A DNA stretch of 12,672 nt from Chryseobacterium sp. UBA6632 (GTDB taxonomy: Bacteria; Bacteroidota; Bacteroidia; Flavobacteriales; Weeksellaceae), in the NCBI GenBank assembly GCA_002455915.1, contig DKLU01000143.1, forward strand, positions 1-12,672, written 5' to 3'. The position numbers and the translations under genes are program-made. Positions within the stretch are counted from its first letter, which is position 1. Each line of letters starts with the position of its first letter. The notes below the pieces were generated by a model. That model worked only from the letters and a program-made list of their open reading frames with translations, was not told where the DNA came from and made no database searches. Below, in pieces: positions 1,841 through 11,204 of this stretch.

Positions 1841-2516
1841 TTACCTTATCGTTACTGTTTTCCAGTACGTTTTACCATCTTCAAAATTGCAGATCTCAAA
1901 CTGATTCTTTTTTACTTTTCGTACTAAATCGCTGAATTTTACTTTATCCGGATCCTGAGTATTAATATCGAACGTAGAACTTGCAATTGCATCCCAAAAG
2001 TTCTGTTTTAAACTAAATATTCTCAATGATTTATATCTACTTACACAACTTGAATAATAAATAATAAATACCAATTTCATTGATTCCATCTTCGTCAATA
2101 TCTTTGATAACAAATAAATTATGTGGATTACAGCAATAAGAATCTGTTAAAAGTCGAGGGATAGACTTGTCATAAAAAACATAAGACTCTCCATCATCAC
2201 AATAATTAAATGAAGGAACAACAAAAACAGTATCTTGCTGAGCATTATTTCTGATATTCTTAATGATTTTTATTCCCTTAAAATTATCTTTCAGCTGCTT
2301 ATTTGTATAATTTTGATTTCCACACTTTTCAGATTGATACTTTTCTAAATAATCTTCTAAAATATCATTATTTGTCATCAATAAACTATCTGAAAAATAT
2401 TTTATTGAAGATTGAATTTCCGAAACATTATTTTGAGCATCAACCTTTGTTTTATTAGAACAAGATAAAATGATCAAAAGAATAAAAAGCAGAATTGAAT
2501 GATTAAGATTATTCAT
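1841..2516 (-). pseudogene. Lipoprotein gene disrupted by a 7-bp tandem duplication (frameshift)
   Basis: Two overlapping frames together encode one protein. The first (ATG at 2516) begins with a lipoprotein signal, a hydrophobic stretch then IILSC with the lipidated cysteine at residue 19. It runs to DEDGINEIGIYY and then shifts into a premature stop after 159 aa. The second frame continues naturally as SSCVSRYKSLRIFSLKQ and ends at 1841. The junction holds two tandem copies of a 7-mer (2056-2062 and 2063-2069; AATAAAT on the plus strand). Removing one copy restores a single frame of 222 aa. The DEDGINEIG stretch resembles the Asp-rich calcium-binding-type loops of FG-GAP/VCBS-like proteins, but I do not assign a function. 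The gene begins 6 bases after the GT4 gene, so it is the last gene of that operon. It could be a real pseudogene, a slippage-switched gene or a sequencing error. Confidence 0.75.
2053..2069 (-). repeat. 7-bp tandem repeat causing the frameshift
   Basis: The period is 7 and there are about 2.4 copies (AATAAAT on the plus strand, ATTTATT on the coding strand). The extra copy puts the 3' third of the lipoprotein gene out of frame. Loss of one copy restores the frame as Ile-Tyr-Tyr-Ser-Ser. A short direct repeat of this kind is a plausible site of replication slippage. Confidence 0.8.
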
Positions 2517-3878: not shown

Positions 3879-4002
3879 ATCATTTTCAATAAGATAATAA
3901 AATTTTTTCTGCCATAAAGTCATTTATTGATTTTTGGTAAAATATTTGTAATTTAGATAATGAATAAATGGCAATGTTGCTTTTATTCTAATGAGATATA
4001 TT

Positions 4003-6540
4003 ATGGATTATAAGTTTTCACAAGGTTTGAGCCAAGTGTTCAAACAAAGCAAGAGCGAAGCGAAAAGGCTCAAAAGTGAATTTCTTAATACAGAACATCT
4101 ACTTTTAGGTATTATAAAAACAGAAAACTCTGCAAAAGAAATCCTTCAAAACCTTAATGCGGATTTAACACAAATCAGAAGAAAAATTGAAACTTTAAAT
4201 ACAGCAAGTCTTAGTCCTATTTCTGAGGAGGTTACCAATATTTCTTTCACAAAAATGGCAGATCATGCTATTAAACGTGCAGAGCTGGAATGCAGACAAT
4301 ATAAAAGTAATGAAATTAATACCGTTCATTTGCTTTTAGGCATTCTTTATAAATATGAGGACCCTACTTCAAATATCTTAGGAGCTTACGACATCGATTA
4401 TGAAGGAGTTTCAAGAGAATATCAGACGATGCTTAAAAATTCTGGAGAGTCGCCACAAATGAGCGCTTATGACGATGACGATGAAAGAGAGGAATTTGAG
4501 CAAATGAGAAAGCCTACAGGAAATTTAGGTTCTGCTAAAAGTAAAACACCAACTTTGGATAACTTTGGTAGAGATTTAACTTCTTTGGCAAGAGACGGGA
4601 AATTAGACCCTGTAATCGGTCGTGAAAAAGAAATTGAAAGAGTTTCGCAAATCTTATCGCGTAGAAAGAAAAACAATCCGCTTCTTATCGGGGAGCCGGG
4701 AGTTGGTAAATCTGCGATTGCAGAAGGTTTGGCATTAAGAATTCAACAGAAAAAAGTTTCCAGAGTTCTTTACGGAAAACGTGTAATCACTTTGGATTTG
4801 GCAAGTTTAGTTGCCGGAACTAAATACCGTGGTCAGTTTGAAGAAAGAATGAAGGCGATTATGACTGAGTTGGAGAAAAACAGAGATGTCATCTTATTCA
4901 TTGATGAGCTTCACACTATTGTAGGTGCTGGAAGTTCAACAGGAAGTCTAGATGCTTCGAATATGTTTAAACCGGCTTTGGCGAGAGGTGAAATTCAATG
5001 CATCGGGGCTACAACTTTGGATGAATACCGTCAGTACATCGAGAAAGATGGTGCTTTGGAAAGAAGATTCCAGAAAGTAATGGTGGAACCAACTTCTATT
5101 GACGAAACAATTCAGATTTTAAATCAAATCAAAGATAAGTATGAAGAGCACCACAATGTAATTTATACTCCTGAAGCGATTGCAGCGTGTGTCAATTTGA
5201 CATCAAGATATATTACAGACCGTTTCTTACCAGACAAAGCGATCGACGCGATGGATGAAGCCGGATCTCGTGTTTATATTAAAAACATGAAAGTTCCTAC
5301 AGAAATCATTGATTTTGAAAAGAAAATTGAAGAGATCAAGGAATTGAAGCAGAAAGCTGTAAAAGCTCAGGATTATCTTGAAGCAAGAAAACTGAAAGAT
5401 GAAGAGGAAAGACTTCAAATGGAATTGAATTCTGCTCAGGATAAATGGGACAAAGATGTGAAGGAGAAAAAAGAAACCGTTTCTGAAGAAAATGTAGCGG
5501 AGGTAGTTTCTATGATGAGTGGTGTTCCTGTAACGAAAGTTGGTAAAAACGAGCTTGATAAACTTGCCGGAATGGATAATAACCTGAACGGAAAAGTAAT
5601 TGGTCAGGAAGATGCTGTGAAAAAAGTTGTTAAGGCAATTCAAAGAAACAGAGCGGGTCTTAAAGATCCGAACCGTCCGATTGGTACATTCATTTTCTTA
5701 GGGACAACCGGGGTTGGTAAAACCGAGCTGGCTAAAGTAATGGCGAGAGAACTTTTCGAATCTGATGAATCTTTGATCAGAATCGATATGAGTGAATATA
5801 TGGAGAAATTCGCAGTTTCTAGATTGGTTGGAGCGCCTCCGGGATACGTGGGATATGAGGAAGGCGGACAATTAACGGAGGCCGTAAGAAGAAAACCATA
5901 TTCAGTTGTTCTTTTGGATGAAATTGAAAAAGCTCACCCAGATGTATTCAATATCTTATTACAGATCTTGGATGAAGGGCACGTTACAGATAGTTTAGGA
6001 AGAAAAATTGATTTTAGAAATACAATCATTATCCTTACTTCAAACATCGGTACAAGAGATCTTAAAGATTTCGGAGATGGTGTAGGATTCGGAACGAACG
6101 CGAAAAAGACCAACACAGACTCTAGAGCAAGAAGCACCATCGAGAATGCCCTTAAAAAAGCATTTTCACCAGAATTCTTAAACAGAATTGATGATATTGT
6201 GATCTTCAACTCTCTTGAAAAAGAAGATATCAAGAAAATTATTGATCTTGAATTGAATAAGCTTTACAGCAGACTTGAAAAATTAGGTTATAAAGTTGAT
6301 TTAACTGACGAAGCGAAAGATTTCATCTCTGAAAAAGGATGGGATAAAGATTTCGGAGCAAGACCATTGAAAAGAGCGATCCAGAAATATATTGAAGATT
6401 TATTGGCCGAAATGTTGGTAAACAAGCAATTAAACGAAGGAGAAACTGTAGTTCTTGATCTGAATGAAGCGAAAGATGCTTTGGCAGGAAAAACTTCAAA
6501 GCCGAAGAAATCAGCGGCTGAAAAGTCTTCTCAATCATAA
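4003..6540 (+). CDS. clpC: ClpC-type AAA+ unfoldase of the Clp protease
   Basis: This 845-aa Hsp100 ATPase unfolds substrates and threads them into ClpP in the cytoplasm. Domains in order are: a double Clp N-domain (about 1-146); an acidic linker (AYDDDDEREEFEQ, about 155-167); D1 with Walker A GEPGVGKS (230-237) and Walker B FIDE (299-302); a UVR-type coiled middle region (about 438-474), typical of ClpC rather than ClpA or ClpB; and D2 with Walker A GTTGVGKT (567-574) and Walker B LLDE (637-640). The tripeptide VGF (694-696), within GDGVGFG, is the ClpP-docking loop expected of ClpC. The C-terminus has the FGARPLKRA sensor-2 region. I chose the ATG at 4003 because MDYKFSQGLSQVF is the usual family start; an in-frame ATG 12 bases earlier (3991) is possible. 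No clpP, mcsA or mcsB is nearby. The gene is monocistronic, bounded by a divergent unit and a terminator. Confidence 0.96.
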   Translation: MDYKFSQGLSQVFKQSKSEAKRLKSEFLNTEHLLLGIIKTENSAKEILQNLNADLTQIRRKIETLNTASLSPISEEVTNISFTKMADHAIKRAELECRQYKSNEINTVHLLLGILYKYEDPTSNILGAYDIDYEGVSREYQTMLKNSGESPQMSAYDDDDEREEFEQMRKPTGNLGSAKSKTPTLDNFGRDLTSLARDGKLDPVIGREKEIERVSQILSRRKKNNPLLIGEPGVGKSAIAEGLALRIQQKKVSRVLYGKRVITLDLASLVAGTKYRGQFEERMKAIMTELEKNRDVILFIDELHTIVGAGSSTGSLDASNMFKPALARGEIQCIGATTLDEYRQYIEKDGALERRFQKVMVEPTSIDETIQILNQIKDKYEEHHNVIYTPEAIAACVNLTSRYITDRFLPDKAIDAMDEAGSRVYIKNMKVPTEIIDFEKKIEEIKELKQKAVKAQDYLEARKLKDEEERLQMELNSAQDKWDKDVKEKKETVSEENVAEVVSMMSGVPVTKVGKNELDKLAGMDNNLNGKVIGQEDAVKKVVKAIQRNRAGLKDPNRPIGTFIFLGTTGVGKTELAKVMARELFESDESLIRIDMSEYMEKFAVSRLVGAPPGYVGYEEGGQLTEAVRRKPYSVVLLDEIEKAHPDVFNILLQILDEGHVTDSLGRKIDFRNTIIILTSNIGTRDLKDFGDGVGFGTNAKKTNTDSRARSTIENALKKAFSPEFLNRIDDIVIFNSLEKEDIKKIIDLELNKLYSRLEKLGYKVDLTDEAKDFISEKGWDKDFGARPLKRAIQKYIEDLLAEMLVNKQLNEGETVVLDLNEAKDALAGKTSKPKKSAAEKSSQS

Positions 6541-6688: not shown

Positions 6689-7072
6689 ATGAAAATGAAA
6701 AAAACAGTTTTACTTTTTAGTATTTCGGTACTAAGCATTATCTCTTGTGCAAATGAGTCTACTTTAGCCACCACGGCTACTCCACAGCTTACAAAACCGG
6801 AAGCGGTTTCAAAATTCAACGCAGCTATTAAAAAAGTTGCCATGATTAAAGATCCTGCTCCTTCAATGCCAAAAACCTCAGCAGAATTAAGCGATGAGAA
6901 AAAAGACATGCTAATACCTTCAGCAAAAGAATTAATTGCTTCTACAGGAGTTTCTTCCGCAGAAATTGAAAGACAAACGAATAACGACAGAGAAAAAATC
7001 TTAAAATGGGCCGTTCAGGTGTATGGTGAGTACAACAAAAAAATGAATCAAAACTATCAATCTGCAAACTAA
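6689..7072 (+). CDS. Small lipoprotein A1 (unknown family, duplicated)
   Basis: The 127-aa protein starts with a basic, hydrophobic signal and the lipobox SIISC, giving a lipidated cysteine at residue 20 and a mature part of 108 residues. The mature part is hydrophilic and mostly helix-like, opening with PQLTKPEAVSKFNAAIKK and ending with DREKILKWAVQVYGEYNKK. There are no cysteines beyond the lipidated one and no enzyme motif that I recognise. The ATG at 6689 is preferred over the one at 6695 because it aligns with the start of the paralogue A2. The mature protein matches A2 at 103 of 108 positions. Secreted protein B1 starts 7 bases after the stop, across a spacer (GTATACC) identical to that of the A2-B2 pair. 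It is probably anchored on the periplasmic side of a membrane. Its function is unknown; being paired with a secreted partner suggests a shared role. Confidence 0.85.
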   Translation: MKMKKTVLLFSISVLSIISCANESTLATTATPQLTKPEAVSKFNAAIKKVAMIKDPAPSMPKTSAELSDEKKDMLIPSAKELIASTGVSSAEIERQTNNDREKILKWAVQVYGEYNKKMNQNYQSAN

Positions 7073-7079
7073 GTATACC

Positions 7080-7640
7080 ATGAAAAAATTATTTTTATCT
7101 CTTGCCTTTATTTTATCATACAGTATTTCGGCACAATCTAATATTTACTTTCAAAATTATACTCCTTACATCATGGAAATGAGTATTTTCAAGACCAATC
7201 AAGCTAATGTTGCAGGAGGATGTACTCCAAATTGGGATGGCAGAAACAGCATTACCGGGTTATTACCTCTCAAAGAATCTCCGACAGGTGGCGCTACCTC
7301 AACGGATGCATTTTATGATTCGGATTTAAATTTATCAAATACTTTTAATCCTATGTATCCGCAAACGCCATTGATTGATAGATGGATTCTTAATGCAGAT
7401 TATGCAAATCCTTACATTTTACCCGGTTCTACAATCCCTGCAAGCAGTTTAGCAGCAAAAGATTTGGGAATGAAATTTGGAGTAAAAGATCCGGTGACGG
7501 GAACAAATGTAGCAGGATATTTTCCTTTAGGATATGTTAACTGTGGAGCATTACCCCTCCTTAATACAGCAGCCTATACAACTCTTTTTAATAGCTCTTA
7601 TTTCACTTTTGGAGGTGACGAATGGGTTATCTTTTTTTAA
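7080..7640 (+). CDS. Secreted protein B1 (unknown family, first of three paralogues)
   Basis: The 186-aa protein has a clear Sec signal peptide ending near SISAQ (residues 15-19). The mature chain begins with NIYFQNYTP and is rich in Tyr, Asn, Thr and Pro, suggesting a beta-rich exported domain. Motifs shared with B2 and B3 are QNYTP near the mature N-terminus, STDA (74-77), a WILN segment (102-105), KFGVKD (132-137), a GY..LG region before a cysteine (C155), and a terminal FGG..WV followed by two aromatic residues. Two cysteines (48 and 155) are conserved in all three proteins and could form a disulfide. No type IX secretion C-terminal domain is visible. It follows lipoprotein A1 by 7 bases. 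It is the most divergent of the three, lacking the NTFSNVT.YHG stretch of B2 and B3. I do not recognise the family. Confidence 0.82.
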   Translation: MKKLFLSLAFILSYSISAQSNIYFQNYTPYIMEMSIFKTNQANVAGGCTPNWDGRNSITGLLPLKESPTGGATSTDAFYDSDLNLSNTFNPMYPQTPLIDRWILNADYANPYILPGSTIPASSLAAKDLGMKFGVKDPVTGTNVAGYFPLGYVNCGALPLLNTAAYTTLFNSSYFTFGGDEWVIFF

Positions 7641-7660
7641 AAAATTTTTATTCAACAATA

Positions 7661-7693
7661 ATTTAGGTAATGGCTGTAAACTGTTACCTAAAT
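7661..7693 (+). terminator. Hairpin between B1 and A2 (partial terminator or attenuator)
   Basis: A 10-bp perfect stem pairs 7661-7670 with 7684-7693. Inside it, two wobble pairs and one G-C pair extend it to 13 bp around a 7-base loop. Only a short, imperfect T-run (ATTTT) follows, so it could reduce rather than stop read-through from the A1-B1 pair into A2. It is the only structured element in the 80-base spacer. Confidence 0.45.
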
Positions 7694-7720
7694 ATTTTAA
7701 TCACAAAACAAATTAGTATC

Positions 7721-8098
7721 ATGAAAAAAACAATTTTTCTTGTAGGTATTTCTTTACTTACCATTTTATCGTGTGCAAACGAATCTAATTTAGCAACAAC
7801 CACTACTCCACAACTCACAAAACCTGAGGCAGTTTCAAAATTTAATGCCGCTATTAAAAAGGTCGCGATGATAAAAGATCCGGCTCCTTCGATGCCAAAA
7901 ACCTCAGCAGAATTGAGTGATGAGAAAAAAGATATGCTTATTCCTGCTGCAAAAGAATTGATTGCTTCTACGGGAGTTTCTTCAGCAGAAATCGAAAGAC
8001 AAACCAACAATGACAGAGAAAAGATTTTAAAATGGGCCGTTCAGGTGTATGGTGAGTACAACAAAAAAATAAATCAAAGCTATCAATCTGCAAATTAA
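7721..8098 (+). CDS. Small lipoprotein A2 (paralogue of A1)
   Basis: The 125-aa protein has a signal peptide and the lipobox TILSC, with the lipidated cysteine at residue 18. The mature 108 residues differ from A1 at only five positions, although the signal peptides differ more. An upstream in-frame ATG at 7670 would add 17 residues before the signal peptide and would start inside the preceding hairpin. The ATG at 7721 gives a normal lipoprotein signal and aligns with A1. Over the 74 codons before position 8027, I count about 28 silent differences from A1 and one replacement, so the protein is under strong conservation. From 8027 onward the DNA is almost the same as in A1. Secreted protein B2 starts 7 bases after the stop. 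The role is unknown, presumably the same as A1. Confidence 0.85.
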   Translation: MKKTIFLVGISLLTILSCANESNLATTTTPQLTKPEAVSKFNAAIKKVAMIKDPAPSMPKTSAELSDEKKDMLIPAAKELIASTGVSSAEIERQTNNDREKILKWAVQVYGEYNKKINQSYQSAN

Positions 8099-8105
8099 GT
8101 ATACC

Positions 8106-8666
8106 ATGAAAAAATTATTTTTACTAGCAGTTCTATTCATTTCTTATGGCTTATCTGCACAAACTAATCCTGGGGACTTATATATTCAAAACTACACCCC
8201 ACATTATATTGAATATTTTATATGGCGTTCAAATTTATCAAATACTGCAGGTGGCTGCGCTCCTACACTAGCACCAAGAGCCGCCACAGGAGGGCTAATG
8301 AGACTATCCTATTCTACAAACCCTGGATACACTTCAACCGACGCACTGCATGAATTTAATGTAAATACTACATTTTCTCCAAGTACTGCGTTTCCGACAA
8401 CACCGGTCATTGGAGCCTGGATTTTAAATAGTACAACTACTTATACTGCACCAACTCCTATCCTTAATACATTTAGTAATGTAACGTCTTATCACGGGGT
8501 AAAATTCGGAGTACAAGATGTAAACGGGGTGAATATTGGTGGATACTATTCTTTAGGACAAGAATGTGGAACGCCTATCATTCCCGATTTATCGTATAAT
8601 CCGAGTGCAGTTATCTCAGGAACCTTTTTTGCTTTCGGAGGCGCCAATTGGATGATATTATATTAA
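8106..8666 (+). CDS. Secreted protein B2 (paralogue of B1 and B3)
   Basis: The 186-aa protein has a Sec signal peptide ending near GLSAQ (15-19). The mature chain starts with a short acidic lead into LYIQNYTPHYIE and is rich in Thr, Asn, Pro and aromatic residues. Shared motifs are STDAL (77-81), FPTTPVIGAWILN (96-108), NTFSNVTSYHGVKFGV (121-136), NIGGYYSLG (143-151) and the terminal FGGANWMILY. Cysteines 51 and 154 are conserved in B1 and B3. It pairs with lipoprotein A2, whose stop is 7 bases upstream. It is much closer to B3 than to B1, especially in its second half, where even the DNA aligns well, pointing to a later duplication. It is probably exported to the periplasm or surface. I know of no family match and see no enzymatic signature. 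Confidence 0.82.
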   Translation: MKKLFLLAVLFISYGLSAQTNPGDLYIQNYTPHYIEYFIWRSNLSNTAGGCAPTLAPRAATGGLMRLSYSTNPGYTSTDALHEFNVNTTFSPSTAFPTTPVIGAWILNSTTTYTAPTPILNTFSNVTSYHGVKFGVQDVNGVNIGGYYSLGQECGTPIIPDLSYNPSAVISGTFFAFGGANWMILY

Positions 8667-8707
8667 AGTTTCATTGAGTTTTAAAAATCCATTAAAAAAG
8701 ATTCAAA

Positions 8708-9274
8708 ATGAGAAAAATATTTTTAATAGCAGCTTGCATATCGTCTTTATTTACATTGGCACAATCTACAGGAGATTTTTATATCCAGAATTATACTCCT
8801 CACTATATTGAGTTTTATCTTACTAAATCTAATTTAACGGATCCGGCAACCAATTGTTCACCTACGTTAGAAGCCAGAAGCCCTACAAATGGGTTGCTGC
8901 AGTTATCTTACTCCCCAAGCCCCAGTATAATATCTACTGATGCATTGTATACAGCAAATGTAAACAACACTTTCGCTACAAGTACAGCTTTTCCTACTAC
9001 TCCGGTAGTTGGCAGCTGGATTGTTAATTCTAATTACGCAAGCCCTTATTACTCACCAAACCCAATTCTTAATACTTTTAGTAATGTAACAACTTATCAC
9101 GGGATAAAATTCGGAGTAAAAGATGTTTACGGAGTGAATATTGGTGGATATTATTTTATGGGAGAAGGCTGCAACCTGCCTACCATAACAACAGATCTGA
9201 CCTATGACCCGACAGCCGTAATTGAAGGCTCCTATTTTAGCTTTGGAGGAGCAAAATGGGTTGTACTTTATTAA
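8708..9274 (+). CDS. Secreted protein B3 (paralogue of B2, without its own lipoprotein)
   Basis: The 188-aa protein has a signal peptide ending near TLAQ (16-19). The mature part opens with DFYIQNYTPHYIEF and keeps the family motifs: STDAL (76-80), FPTTPVVGSWIVN, NTFSNVTTYHGIKFGV (122-137), NIGGYY (144-149) and the terminal FGGAKWVVLY. Cysteines 50 and 155 match those in B1 and B2; a third cysteine lies in the signal peptide. It starts 41 bases after B2 with no A-type gene between them, so the array ends A2-B2-B3. No terminator separates B2 and B3, so they are probably co-transcribed. The missing A3 could mean that A2 serves both B2 and B3, or that a copy was lost. The function is unknown. 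Confidence 0.82.
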   Translation: MRKIFLIAACISSLFTLAQSTGDFYIQNYTPHYIEFYLTKSNLTDPATNCSPTLEARSPTNGLLQLSYSPSPSIISTDALYTANVNNTFATSTAFPTTPVVGSWIVNSNYASPYYSPNPILNTFSNVTTYHGIKFGVKDVYGVNIGGYYFMGEGCNLPTITTDLTYDPTAVIEGSYFSFGGAKWVVLY

Positions 9275-9372: not shown

Positions 9373-9900
9373 TTAAAGCCCAACTACAAACCCAATATTT
9401 GGAATCAGCCCACTAGATAAAAAGCTTGAATTTTCTTTATATAATACATTATACATCACTCCTATCTGCATAAAAGAGTTATTGCCAATTCTTTGCATGT
9501 AACCACCTCCGAGATATAAAGCCGTTTCTTGTTCATTAATCTTATAATCGTAATATTTATCTTTATAATTGATGAAGTACTGCTGAAGATTCGCCCCTAC
9601 ATAAAAAGATCTTGCAAAGTAATAATTAACAAACGGCCCCACTCCAAACAAAGTAGAACGGTAATAATCAGAAGTTTGCCAAGAAACACTTCCCAAAACT
9701 CCGGCTTCCAGATCATTAGTCAATCTGTAACCTACTCTCGGTGACGCAGATAAATTAAAAGCACTGTTGCTTCCAAAACCTACTCCAATTCCGCCTCCGA
9801 AAGTCCAGCGATTGTTATTTTCAGGGGAAGCGCCAATAGCAACCTGAGAAAACACGGCTCCAGAAATCATTAAGAATAAAAGAATAATAAACTTTTTCAT
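9373..9900 (-). CDS. Small outer-membrane beta-barrel protein
   Basis: The 175-aa protein has a Sec signal peptide (MKKFIILLFLMISGAVFS) with probable cleavage just before QVAIG. The mature chain of about 157 residues shows repeated alternating, glycine- and aromatic-rich strands, for example WTFGGGIGVGFG, SASPRVGYRL, LEAGVLGSVSW, VGPFVNYYF and FYVGANLQQYF. It ends in IPNIGFVVGL. The size and pattern fit an eight-stranded OmpA/OmpX-type barrel in the outer membrane. There are no cysteines and no peptidoglycan-binding domain. Such proteins are often annotated only as porin-family or outer-membrane-beta-barrel proteins, and the cargo or role is not deducible. It is convergent with the B array and divergent from mnmA. 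I found no perfect -7 box upstream; a TAATTTTA stretch is the nearest. Confidence 0.82.
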   Translation of the reverse strand: MKKFIILLFLMISGAVFSQVAIGASPENNNRWTFGGGIGVGFGSNSAFNLSASPRVGYRLTNDLEAGVLGSVSWQTSDYYRSTLFGVGPFVNYYFARSFYVGANLQQYFINYKDKYYDYKINEQETALYLGGGYMQRIGNNSFMQIGVMYNVLYKENSSFLSSGLIPNIGFVVGL

Positions 9901-10016: not shown

Positions 10017-11204
10017 ATGAAAGTAGTAGTAGGCCTCTCAGGAGGTGTAGACTCGAGTGTAACAGCCTATTTGTTACAACAGCAAGGTCATGAAGTTGTG
10101 GCTTTGTTTATGAGAAACTGGAATGATGCTTCGGTAACGTTGGAAGACGAATGCCCCTGGATCGAAGACAGTAATGATGCTCTAATGGTCGCTCAAAAGC
10201 TTGGGATTCCGTTTCAGGTGATCGATATGAGTGATCTTTACAAGGAAAGAATCGTTGATTATATGTTCGATGAATATCAGAAAGGAAGAACTCCGAATCC
10301 TGATGTTTTGTGCAACAGAGAAGTAAAATTCGATGTTTTTATGAAAACAGCGATGTCTTTGGGTGCAGATAAAGTGGCAACCGGGCATTATGCAAGAGTA
10401 GATTCAACGATTGATGAAAATGGTAAAGAAATTTTCCATCTTTTGGCAGGAAAGGATAATAATAAAGACCAGTCGTATTTCTTATGTCAATTAAGCCAGG
10501 ATCAATTATCTAAAGCATTATTTCCGATTGGAGAATTAACAAAACCTCAGGTGAGAGAAATTGCAAAGGAAATCGGATTAGTAACGGCTGATAAAAAAGA
10601 TTCTCAAGGGTTGTGTTTTATCGGAAAAGTAAGTCTTCCGCAATTTTTGCAACAACAATTAGTTCCTAAAGAAGGTGAAATTGTAGAAATTTTTAAAGAT
10701 TCTCCCCTTTTTGCACAAGAAAAACCTGAATTTTCTTCAAAACAAGAAGAATTAGAATTTTTAAGTCAGAAAATCAATTATAAAAAAACGGACGGGAAAG
10801 TTATCGGAAAGCACCAAGGTGCTCAATTTTTCACGATCGGACAAAGTAAGGGATTAGGAATCGGCGGCCATAAGGAAAGCTGTTTTATCATCTCCAGAGA
10901 TATGGAAAACAATATTCTTTTCGTTGGAGAAGGACATCAGTTTCCGGGATTATTAAAAAGAGCCTTGAAAATAGATAATTCTGAATTGCATTGGGTTCGT
11001 GAAGATTTAAGATTAAAAAACGGAGAATCGATGGAAGTAATGGCAAGATTCAGATACAGACAGCCTCTGCAGAAAGCGACTTTATATCAGTTTGAAGATG
11101 CTTTTTATGTAGAATTTGAAGATCCACAATCAGCCATCGCAGAAGGTCAGTTTGCATCGTGGTACAATGGTGAAGAATTATTAGGAAGTGGTGTTATTGC
11201 TTAG
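10017..11204 (+). CDS. mnmA: tRNA-specific 2-thiouridylase MnmA
   Basis: MnmA adenylates and thiolates U34 of tRNA-Lys, tRNA-Glu and tRNA-Gln, giving the s2U part of mnm5s2U in the cytoplasm. The 395-aa protein has the PP-loop ATP-binding motif LSGGVDSSV at 7-15. Catalytic Cys99 lies in [12 protein letters not shown], and the persulfide-forming Cys200 in QGLCFIGK, matching C102 and C199 of E. coli. ATGHYAR (121-127) and [14 protein letters not shown] (271-284) are further family blocks. It is longer than the E. coli enzyme (368 aa) mainly because of an extra charged segment of about 33 residues (about 226-258) before DGKVIG. It has its own promoter box upstream and two hairpins downstream, so it is probably monocistronic. 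The sulfur supply would come from a cysteine desulfurase not in this window. Confidence 0.96.

Follow-up and report, generated by a model that had tools for sequence, protein, structure and literature searches.

Tandem pairing of a conserved lipoprotein with diverse exported proteins in ordered gene arrays of Chryseobacterium-type bacteria

Introduction

The question raised by the locus described here is why two unlike genes should be duplicated in tandem as a pair, and whether their products have a common task. The locus lies in contig DKLU01000143.1 of Chryseobacterium sp. UBA6632, within a stretch of 12,672 nucleotides that we call the window, and it consists of genes for a small lipoprotein (A) and for a Sec-exported protein of about 186 amino acids (aa; B) arranged as A1-B1-A2-B2-B3 at 6689-9274. 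The original prediction, made from the sequence of the window, had described this layout, had recognised neither family and had proposed that both products work together at the cell envelope, for example as an anchor or chaperone with an exported client. Chryseobacterium-type bacteria are widespread in soil, in water, on plants and in clinical settings, and the array type occurs in many of them. It is undescribed; no report on these arrays was found in the open-licence literature by title or abstract opening.

Results

The layout of the array was confirmed from the open reading frames (ORFs), with an intergenic distance of 7 bases in A1/B1 and also in A2/B2 (Table 1). Read from the window sequence, the lipobox of A ends in S-C and the Sec-type signal of B ends in A-Q, in line with the lipoprotein and the exported protein originally described. 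A1 and A2 are 90% identical, and identities among the B copies are 40% (B1-B2), 39% (B1-B3) and 60% (B2-B3). Nonsynonymous and synonymous substitution (pN and pS) amounted to 0.044 and 0.48 for A1/A2, and to 0.25 and 0.64 for B2/B3.

The A-then-B order recurs well beyond the window. We compared 58 loci, namely the window, ten loci found with an A profile and 47 fetched regions chosen via A and B matches, which yielded 164 A and 249 B matches. Five of the latter were false and were removed to leave 244; they were proteins of 175-177 aa beside an mnmA-type gene that the iterated B profile had taken in. Four A (L078, L088, L098 and L109) and one B (L088) masked by other ORFs stand outside the 164 and 249. 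The next gene was a B after 161 of the 164 A; in one of the remaining three the B was masked by ORF picking, and the other two, at loci L089 and L117, were without B. Of the 161 pairs, 122 were separated by -1 to 12 bases and 22 by 13-71 bases; in the other 17 the value was below -1, mostly where an upstream ATG had been taken as the start. As the loci were chosen mostly from A matches, this count is conditioned on A, and as several loci come from one genome and the genomes are related, the locus counts are not independent; finding B next after A 161 times in 164, over 58 loci, is more than chance. In the initial A-profile scan of genome contigs, nine of the ten loci showed A then B, and in the tenth (L010) B came after the final part of an A that was truncated by the contig end.

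The two families also co-occur across genomes. Within a family set of 320 genomes, where the best 10-13 candidates per genome were scored, the first A profile matched 65 genomes and a broad B profile matched 107 at an expectation value (E) <= 1e-4, 68 of these at E <= 1e-15. The A set and the strong-B set had 62 genomes in common, and four of the six other strong-B genomes gained an A through a broader profile (G011, with a short A ORF, G030, G181 and G106), so that an A sequence was present in 66 of the 68. Three A genomes lay outside the strong-B set: in G204 and G246 a weaker B adjoins A, and in G124 A is broken and B is absent. In wider samples, A matched 12 of 395 genomes of the order, two of them weakly, and 2 of 247 of the phylum, and neither sample added an A match beyond the genomes already in the family set. 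The profile tally therefore indicates that the families are not usually found apart.

The pairs are assembled into arrays of very different size, the largest of which (L077) has 8 A and 12 B in about 10 kilobases (kb). By reading of the flanking ORFs, A-B pairs were found in more than ten chromosomal neighbourhoods, including the clpC-mnmA site, the site between the PPK2 gene and an extracytoplasmic function (ECF) sigma factor gene, a site near genes for proteins of 376 and 110 aa, and further single sites. Large arrays (L077-L102) sit at the second of these, between the PPK2 polyphosphate kinase and ECF sigma factor genes. B sorts into 18 types at about 55% identity, and these types follow a common order: 17 of the 19 large arrays open with c-b, followed by f, d, k or a, a-e-h, i and g-j, with losses and repeats, and the other two (L089 and L117) have a different set in common (m-p, m-q, r-n). 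The array of the window is a small case of this widespread ordered array.

A and B differ strongly in how they have diverged. Mean within-array identity was 0.863 for A and 0.395 for B, with A above B in 29 of the 30 loci that had at least two of each. One intact B of locus L090 is included in the identity, neighbour, order and cysteine counts and left out of the sets for A length and for the ratio of nonsynonymous to synonymous substitution (dN/dS), as well as of the A1/A2 and B2/B3 pN and pS values given above. In the 19 large arrays, the nearest relative of B was in another genome's array in 162 of 166 cases and in the same array in 3, with one tie; for A it was in another array in 71 of 107 cases and in the same array in 25, with 11 ties, so A is partly homogenised. 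Identity between A copies falls at the start of B. A copies standing before the same B type were 0.892 identical versus 0.865 otherwise, a difference reached by none of 300 shuffles; shared descent by position also explains this slight likeness.

Over whole genes, dN/dS in 14 pairs of related loci, some used twice and with flanking genes matched by a rough rule, was 0.009-0.181 for A, 0.011-0.216 for B and 0.030-0.160 for the flanking genes. Such values point to purifying selection on B orthologues. Both genes are also kept intact, since 162 of 164 A ORFs were of full length (at least 118 aa) with the lipobox cysteine ([SAG]C at the expected place), and only 4 of 244 B ORFs were short, two of these being pieces of one gene. 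Taken together, dN/dS, type order and neighbour counts suggest old, specialised classes of B and a constrained, common A.

As in the original prediction, neither family was recognised: A and B had no match above the curated cut-off in Pfam or NCBIfam, where the A scans used 17 members for Pfam and PADLOC and the window's two copies for NCBIfam. B gave nothing convincing in Pfam, NCBIfam, PHROGs (a scan that covered B), PADLOC or the sequences of solved structures. Among solved structures searched by sequence, none matched A or B at E <= 0.001, the best value for A being 0.033. DUF7292 aligned with about the first 70 residues of A at a score below its cut-off. With the window's own proteins included, A had 39 relatives that were 58-100% identical, and B had 9 initially and 22 with the 49-member profile; the named relatives of the window's A and B are from Chryseobacterium.

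The export signals are uniform. Substrates of signal peptidase I in Bacteroidetes carry a glutamine directly after the signal peptide (the Q-rule), according to the part of PMC5837995 drawn on here, and by a pattern test 239 of 240 B proteins of at least 150 aa have glutamine at that place. Exactly two mature cysteines were found in 171 of the 240. The mature part of B2, modelled from 37 sequences, was predicted with high confidence to be mostly beta (mean predicted local distance difference test score 92.9, predicted template modelling score 0.87) and is probably a beta-sandwich. When this model was compared with structure libraries, no significant known relative appeared, and the viral structure library likewise gave nothing significant. 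No C-terminal sorting domain (PF18962 or PF13585) matched 49 B proteins at E <= 0.1, and A showed no type IX tail in the Pfam scans.

The position of A at the outer membrane was assessed from its first mature residues. In the part of PMC5080379 used here, the lipoprotein export signal (LES) of surface-exported Bacteroidota lipoproteins is given as a polar or basic residue and then two acidic ones, shortly after the cysteine; it is described there for three other Bacteroidota and is not established for Chryseobacterium. A is a predicted lipoprotein from the same phylum, and unlike those proteins it has one acidic residue, not two, at +2 to +5 in 161 of the 162 copies scored, the remaining copy (at L085) having two. 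From the missing LES, a place on the periplasmic side is more likely, and an anchor on the outer surface, as one form of the originally proposed role, is not supported for a protein without the known surface-export signal.

A third gene accompanies the pair in divergent relatives, where a propeller-like protein of about 600 aa is encoded downstream. It follows an intact A-B pair at L085 (twice) and L140, follows B at L086 (with a short A) and L143 (with a broken A), is in pieces at L141 and L144, and comes after a broken A without B at L142. At the window's own site, it stands directly upstream of A in G004 (L004) and G043 (L112). The type IX secretion tail PF18962 (Por_Secre_tail) scored above its cut-off in all three copies scanned, and the propeller matches of these copies were weak and below cut-off. 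The third gene was found at E <= 1e-20 in 15 of the 30 genomes searched; three matches were partial and weak, and in some genomes the gene is located elsewhere. Three tandem copies of the third protein occur in one genome away from its A-B array (G164:C19:310781-316142). The third protein is an old associate of the pair and may have belonged to an ancestral operon with it. The third protein thus resembles type IX secretion cargo in its tail, which A and B do not show, and a tailed product encoded beside the pair in divergent relatives suggests a task at the outer membrane or across it.

The remaining features of the window are listed in Table 1. The start of A2 is the ATG common to relatives, and the ORF list begins it upstream of that, at 7670. 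The hairpin between B1 and A2 could, from its sequence, split A1-B1 from A2-B2-B3 in transcription. The -33/-7 promoter pattern of Bacteroidota matched none of the 164 regions upstream of A, and its -7 half matched 8 of them, versus 12.35 expected from shuffles; both results speak against an own promoter before each A. No Rfam family matched within the window. The 175-aa exported protein matched an outer-membrane-type family weakly and below its cut-off, and resembled B in the signal peptide only (hhalign); in many relatives such a protein likewise separates the array from the mnmA-type gene. Elsewhere in the window, at 1841-2516 (-), an ORF for a small lipoprotein-like product of 159 aa overlaps a 90-aa ORF in another frame, and the two look like one gene with a broken frame.

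Table 1. Features of the array and of its borders in the window
Feature	Position	Strand	Basis or remark
ClpC-type AAA+ protein, left border of the site	3991-6540	+	Annotation
A1, small lipoprotein, 127 aa	6689-7072	+	ORF list; C-A-N-E following the lipid cysteine
B1, Sec-exported protein, 186 aa	7080-7640	+	Signal ends A-Q; two conserved mature cysteines
Terminator-like hairpin, B1/A2 interval	7661-7693	+	Consensus match only
A2, second lipoprotein copy, 125 aa	7721-8098	+	ORF list and start common to relatives
B2, exported protein, 186 aa	8106-8666	+	ORF list; mature part modelled
B3, third exported copy, 188 aa	8708-9274	+	ORF list
Exported protein, 175 aa, between array and MnmA-type gene	9373-9900	-	ORF list
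tRNA 2-thiouridylase (MnmA-type), right border of the site	10017-11204	+	Annotation

Discussion

Our best reading of these arrays, which we hold at somewhat less than even confidence, is that A is a shared lipoprotein partner in the envelope for many specialised exported clients, the B proteins. Each A would be made just ahead of one to three B, probably from the same message, and, as a lipoprotein, would probably sit in the outer membrane facing the periplasm. B would be exported by Sec, cut before the glutamine and folded into a predominantly beta domain that is probably a beta-sandwich; the single cysteine pair of most members may form a disulphide. A would then receive, hold or tether B, and each type of B would have its own long-established ligand or target, whether a lipid, a glycan or a protein. 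Up to 8 near-identical copies of A remain intact at low dN/dS, a redundancy to be expected if the demand for A scales with B, and the presence of one such copy ahead of each group of B supports a joint function in the envelope. The joint function that the original prediction proposed is thus strengthened by the co-occurrence of the families and by the retained copies of A; the more specific role of A as an anchor or chaperone stays where it was, as a proposal.

Several observations weigh against this reading. Some strong B genes do without an intact A: in G177 a lone B (L139:5367-5870) has no A and is flanked on both sides by large genes of the opposite strand, G189 has a truncated B and yielded no A, and in G146 and G249 B lies beside a broken A. 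Conversely, the A genes at L089:10646-11029 and L117:7528-8025 stand at array ends with no B after them. The gain in A identity before the same B type is only slight, so A does not appear closely tuned to its B. The dN/dS of B exceeded that of the flanking genes in 13 of the 14 pairs, so B is less constrained than its neighbours, yet far from neutral. Mature cysteines are absent from 49 of the 240 B. With one acidic residue in nearly every copy, A is not expected to be displayed on the surface by the known route, and a shared periplasmic partner does not explain a passage of B through the outer membrane. Finally, the third gene is not required, as it is absent at the threshold used from 15 of the 30 genomes.

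A different division of labour, which we consider doubtful, would make the B proteins membrane-acting secreted toxins of aegerolysin or actinoporin shape, with A as the common protective lipoprotein. The aegerolysins (PF06355) and actinoporin-like beta-sandwiches are mostly-beta domains of similar size to B, and the B2 model superposes over 102-107 residues on OlyA/PlyA, a match no stronger than is usual for unrelated models. B differs from these proteins in carrying an export signal at its N terminus and in having a lipoprotein partner, and no sequence or profile similarity was found: the PF06355 profile matched none of 49 B members at E <= 0.1, and hhalign of two B profiles against one Bacteroidota aegerolysin gave a probability of 0.1%. 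An arms race between toxin and immunity would be expected to bring fast change, and the whole-gene dN/dS of both A and B over the 14 pairs speaks against it.

The A and B proteins might also do separate jobs in the envelope and have in common no more than a promoter, with both genes carried along by the duplications. The 80 B matches that follow another B without an intervening A, as well as the lone B of G177, would suit such mere co-transcription. Against it stand the retention of A before B in more than ten neighbourhoods and the strong constraint on as many as 8 intact copies of A, and we regard it as unlikely. Improbable, too, is a defensive array, in which the B proteins would be periplasmic inhibitors or immunity proteins held by A, each type directed at another attacker; the low whole-gene dN/dS and the common type order do not suit such a role, the annotated borders are housekeeping genes, and PADLOC gave no match for 17 A members at E <= 0.1 and three single weak matches for 49 B members (best E 0.011). 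Very improbable is a store of B variants shuffled to alter the cell surface, for which the common A blocks, with identity dropping steeply where B begins, would serve well as anchors of recombination, since the nearest relatives of nearly all B are in other genomes' arrays, the type order is common, dN/dS is low and few B ORFs are short; at the whole-gene level, the same neighbour, order and dN/dS results led us to reject antigenic shuffling.

Tandem lipoprotein arrays exist in other bacteria, for example staphylococci, and they are likewise tandem paralogues of envelope proteins. In the present arrays, by contrast, a single conserved lipoprotein takes turns with soluble exported proteins, one to three at a time and divergent among themselves, and different genomes keep the types in a common order. 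If the shared-partner reading is extended to all of these features, a nearly invariant lipoprotein would be the common adaptor, in a widespread envelope system, for a new family of exported beta proteins that is split into about ten to eighteen ancient classes in a set positional order. The system may have arisen from an operon of three genes, one of them for a type IX-secreted propeller, and would amount to a constant set of binders that all use one mount. This wider proposal is possible, and we put it forward more tentatively than the partnership itself.

Two families without a match in the libraries searched fill about 10 kb in the largest array, intact and in order, and therefore probably matter to the bacteria that carry them. 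The contrast between a constant lipoprotein and a diversified exported partner makes it possible to test directly whether a single envelope component serves many clients, and the type IX-tailed neighbour is a starting point for finding out where the system acts and what it does.
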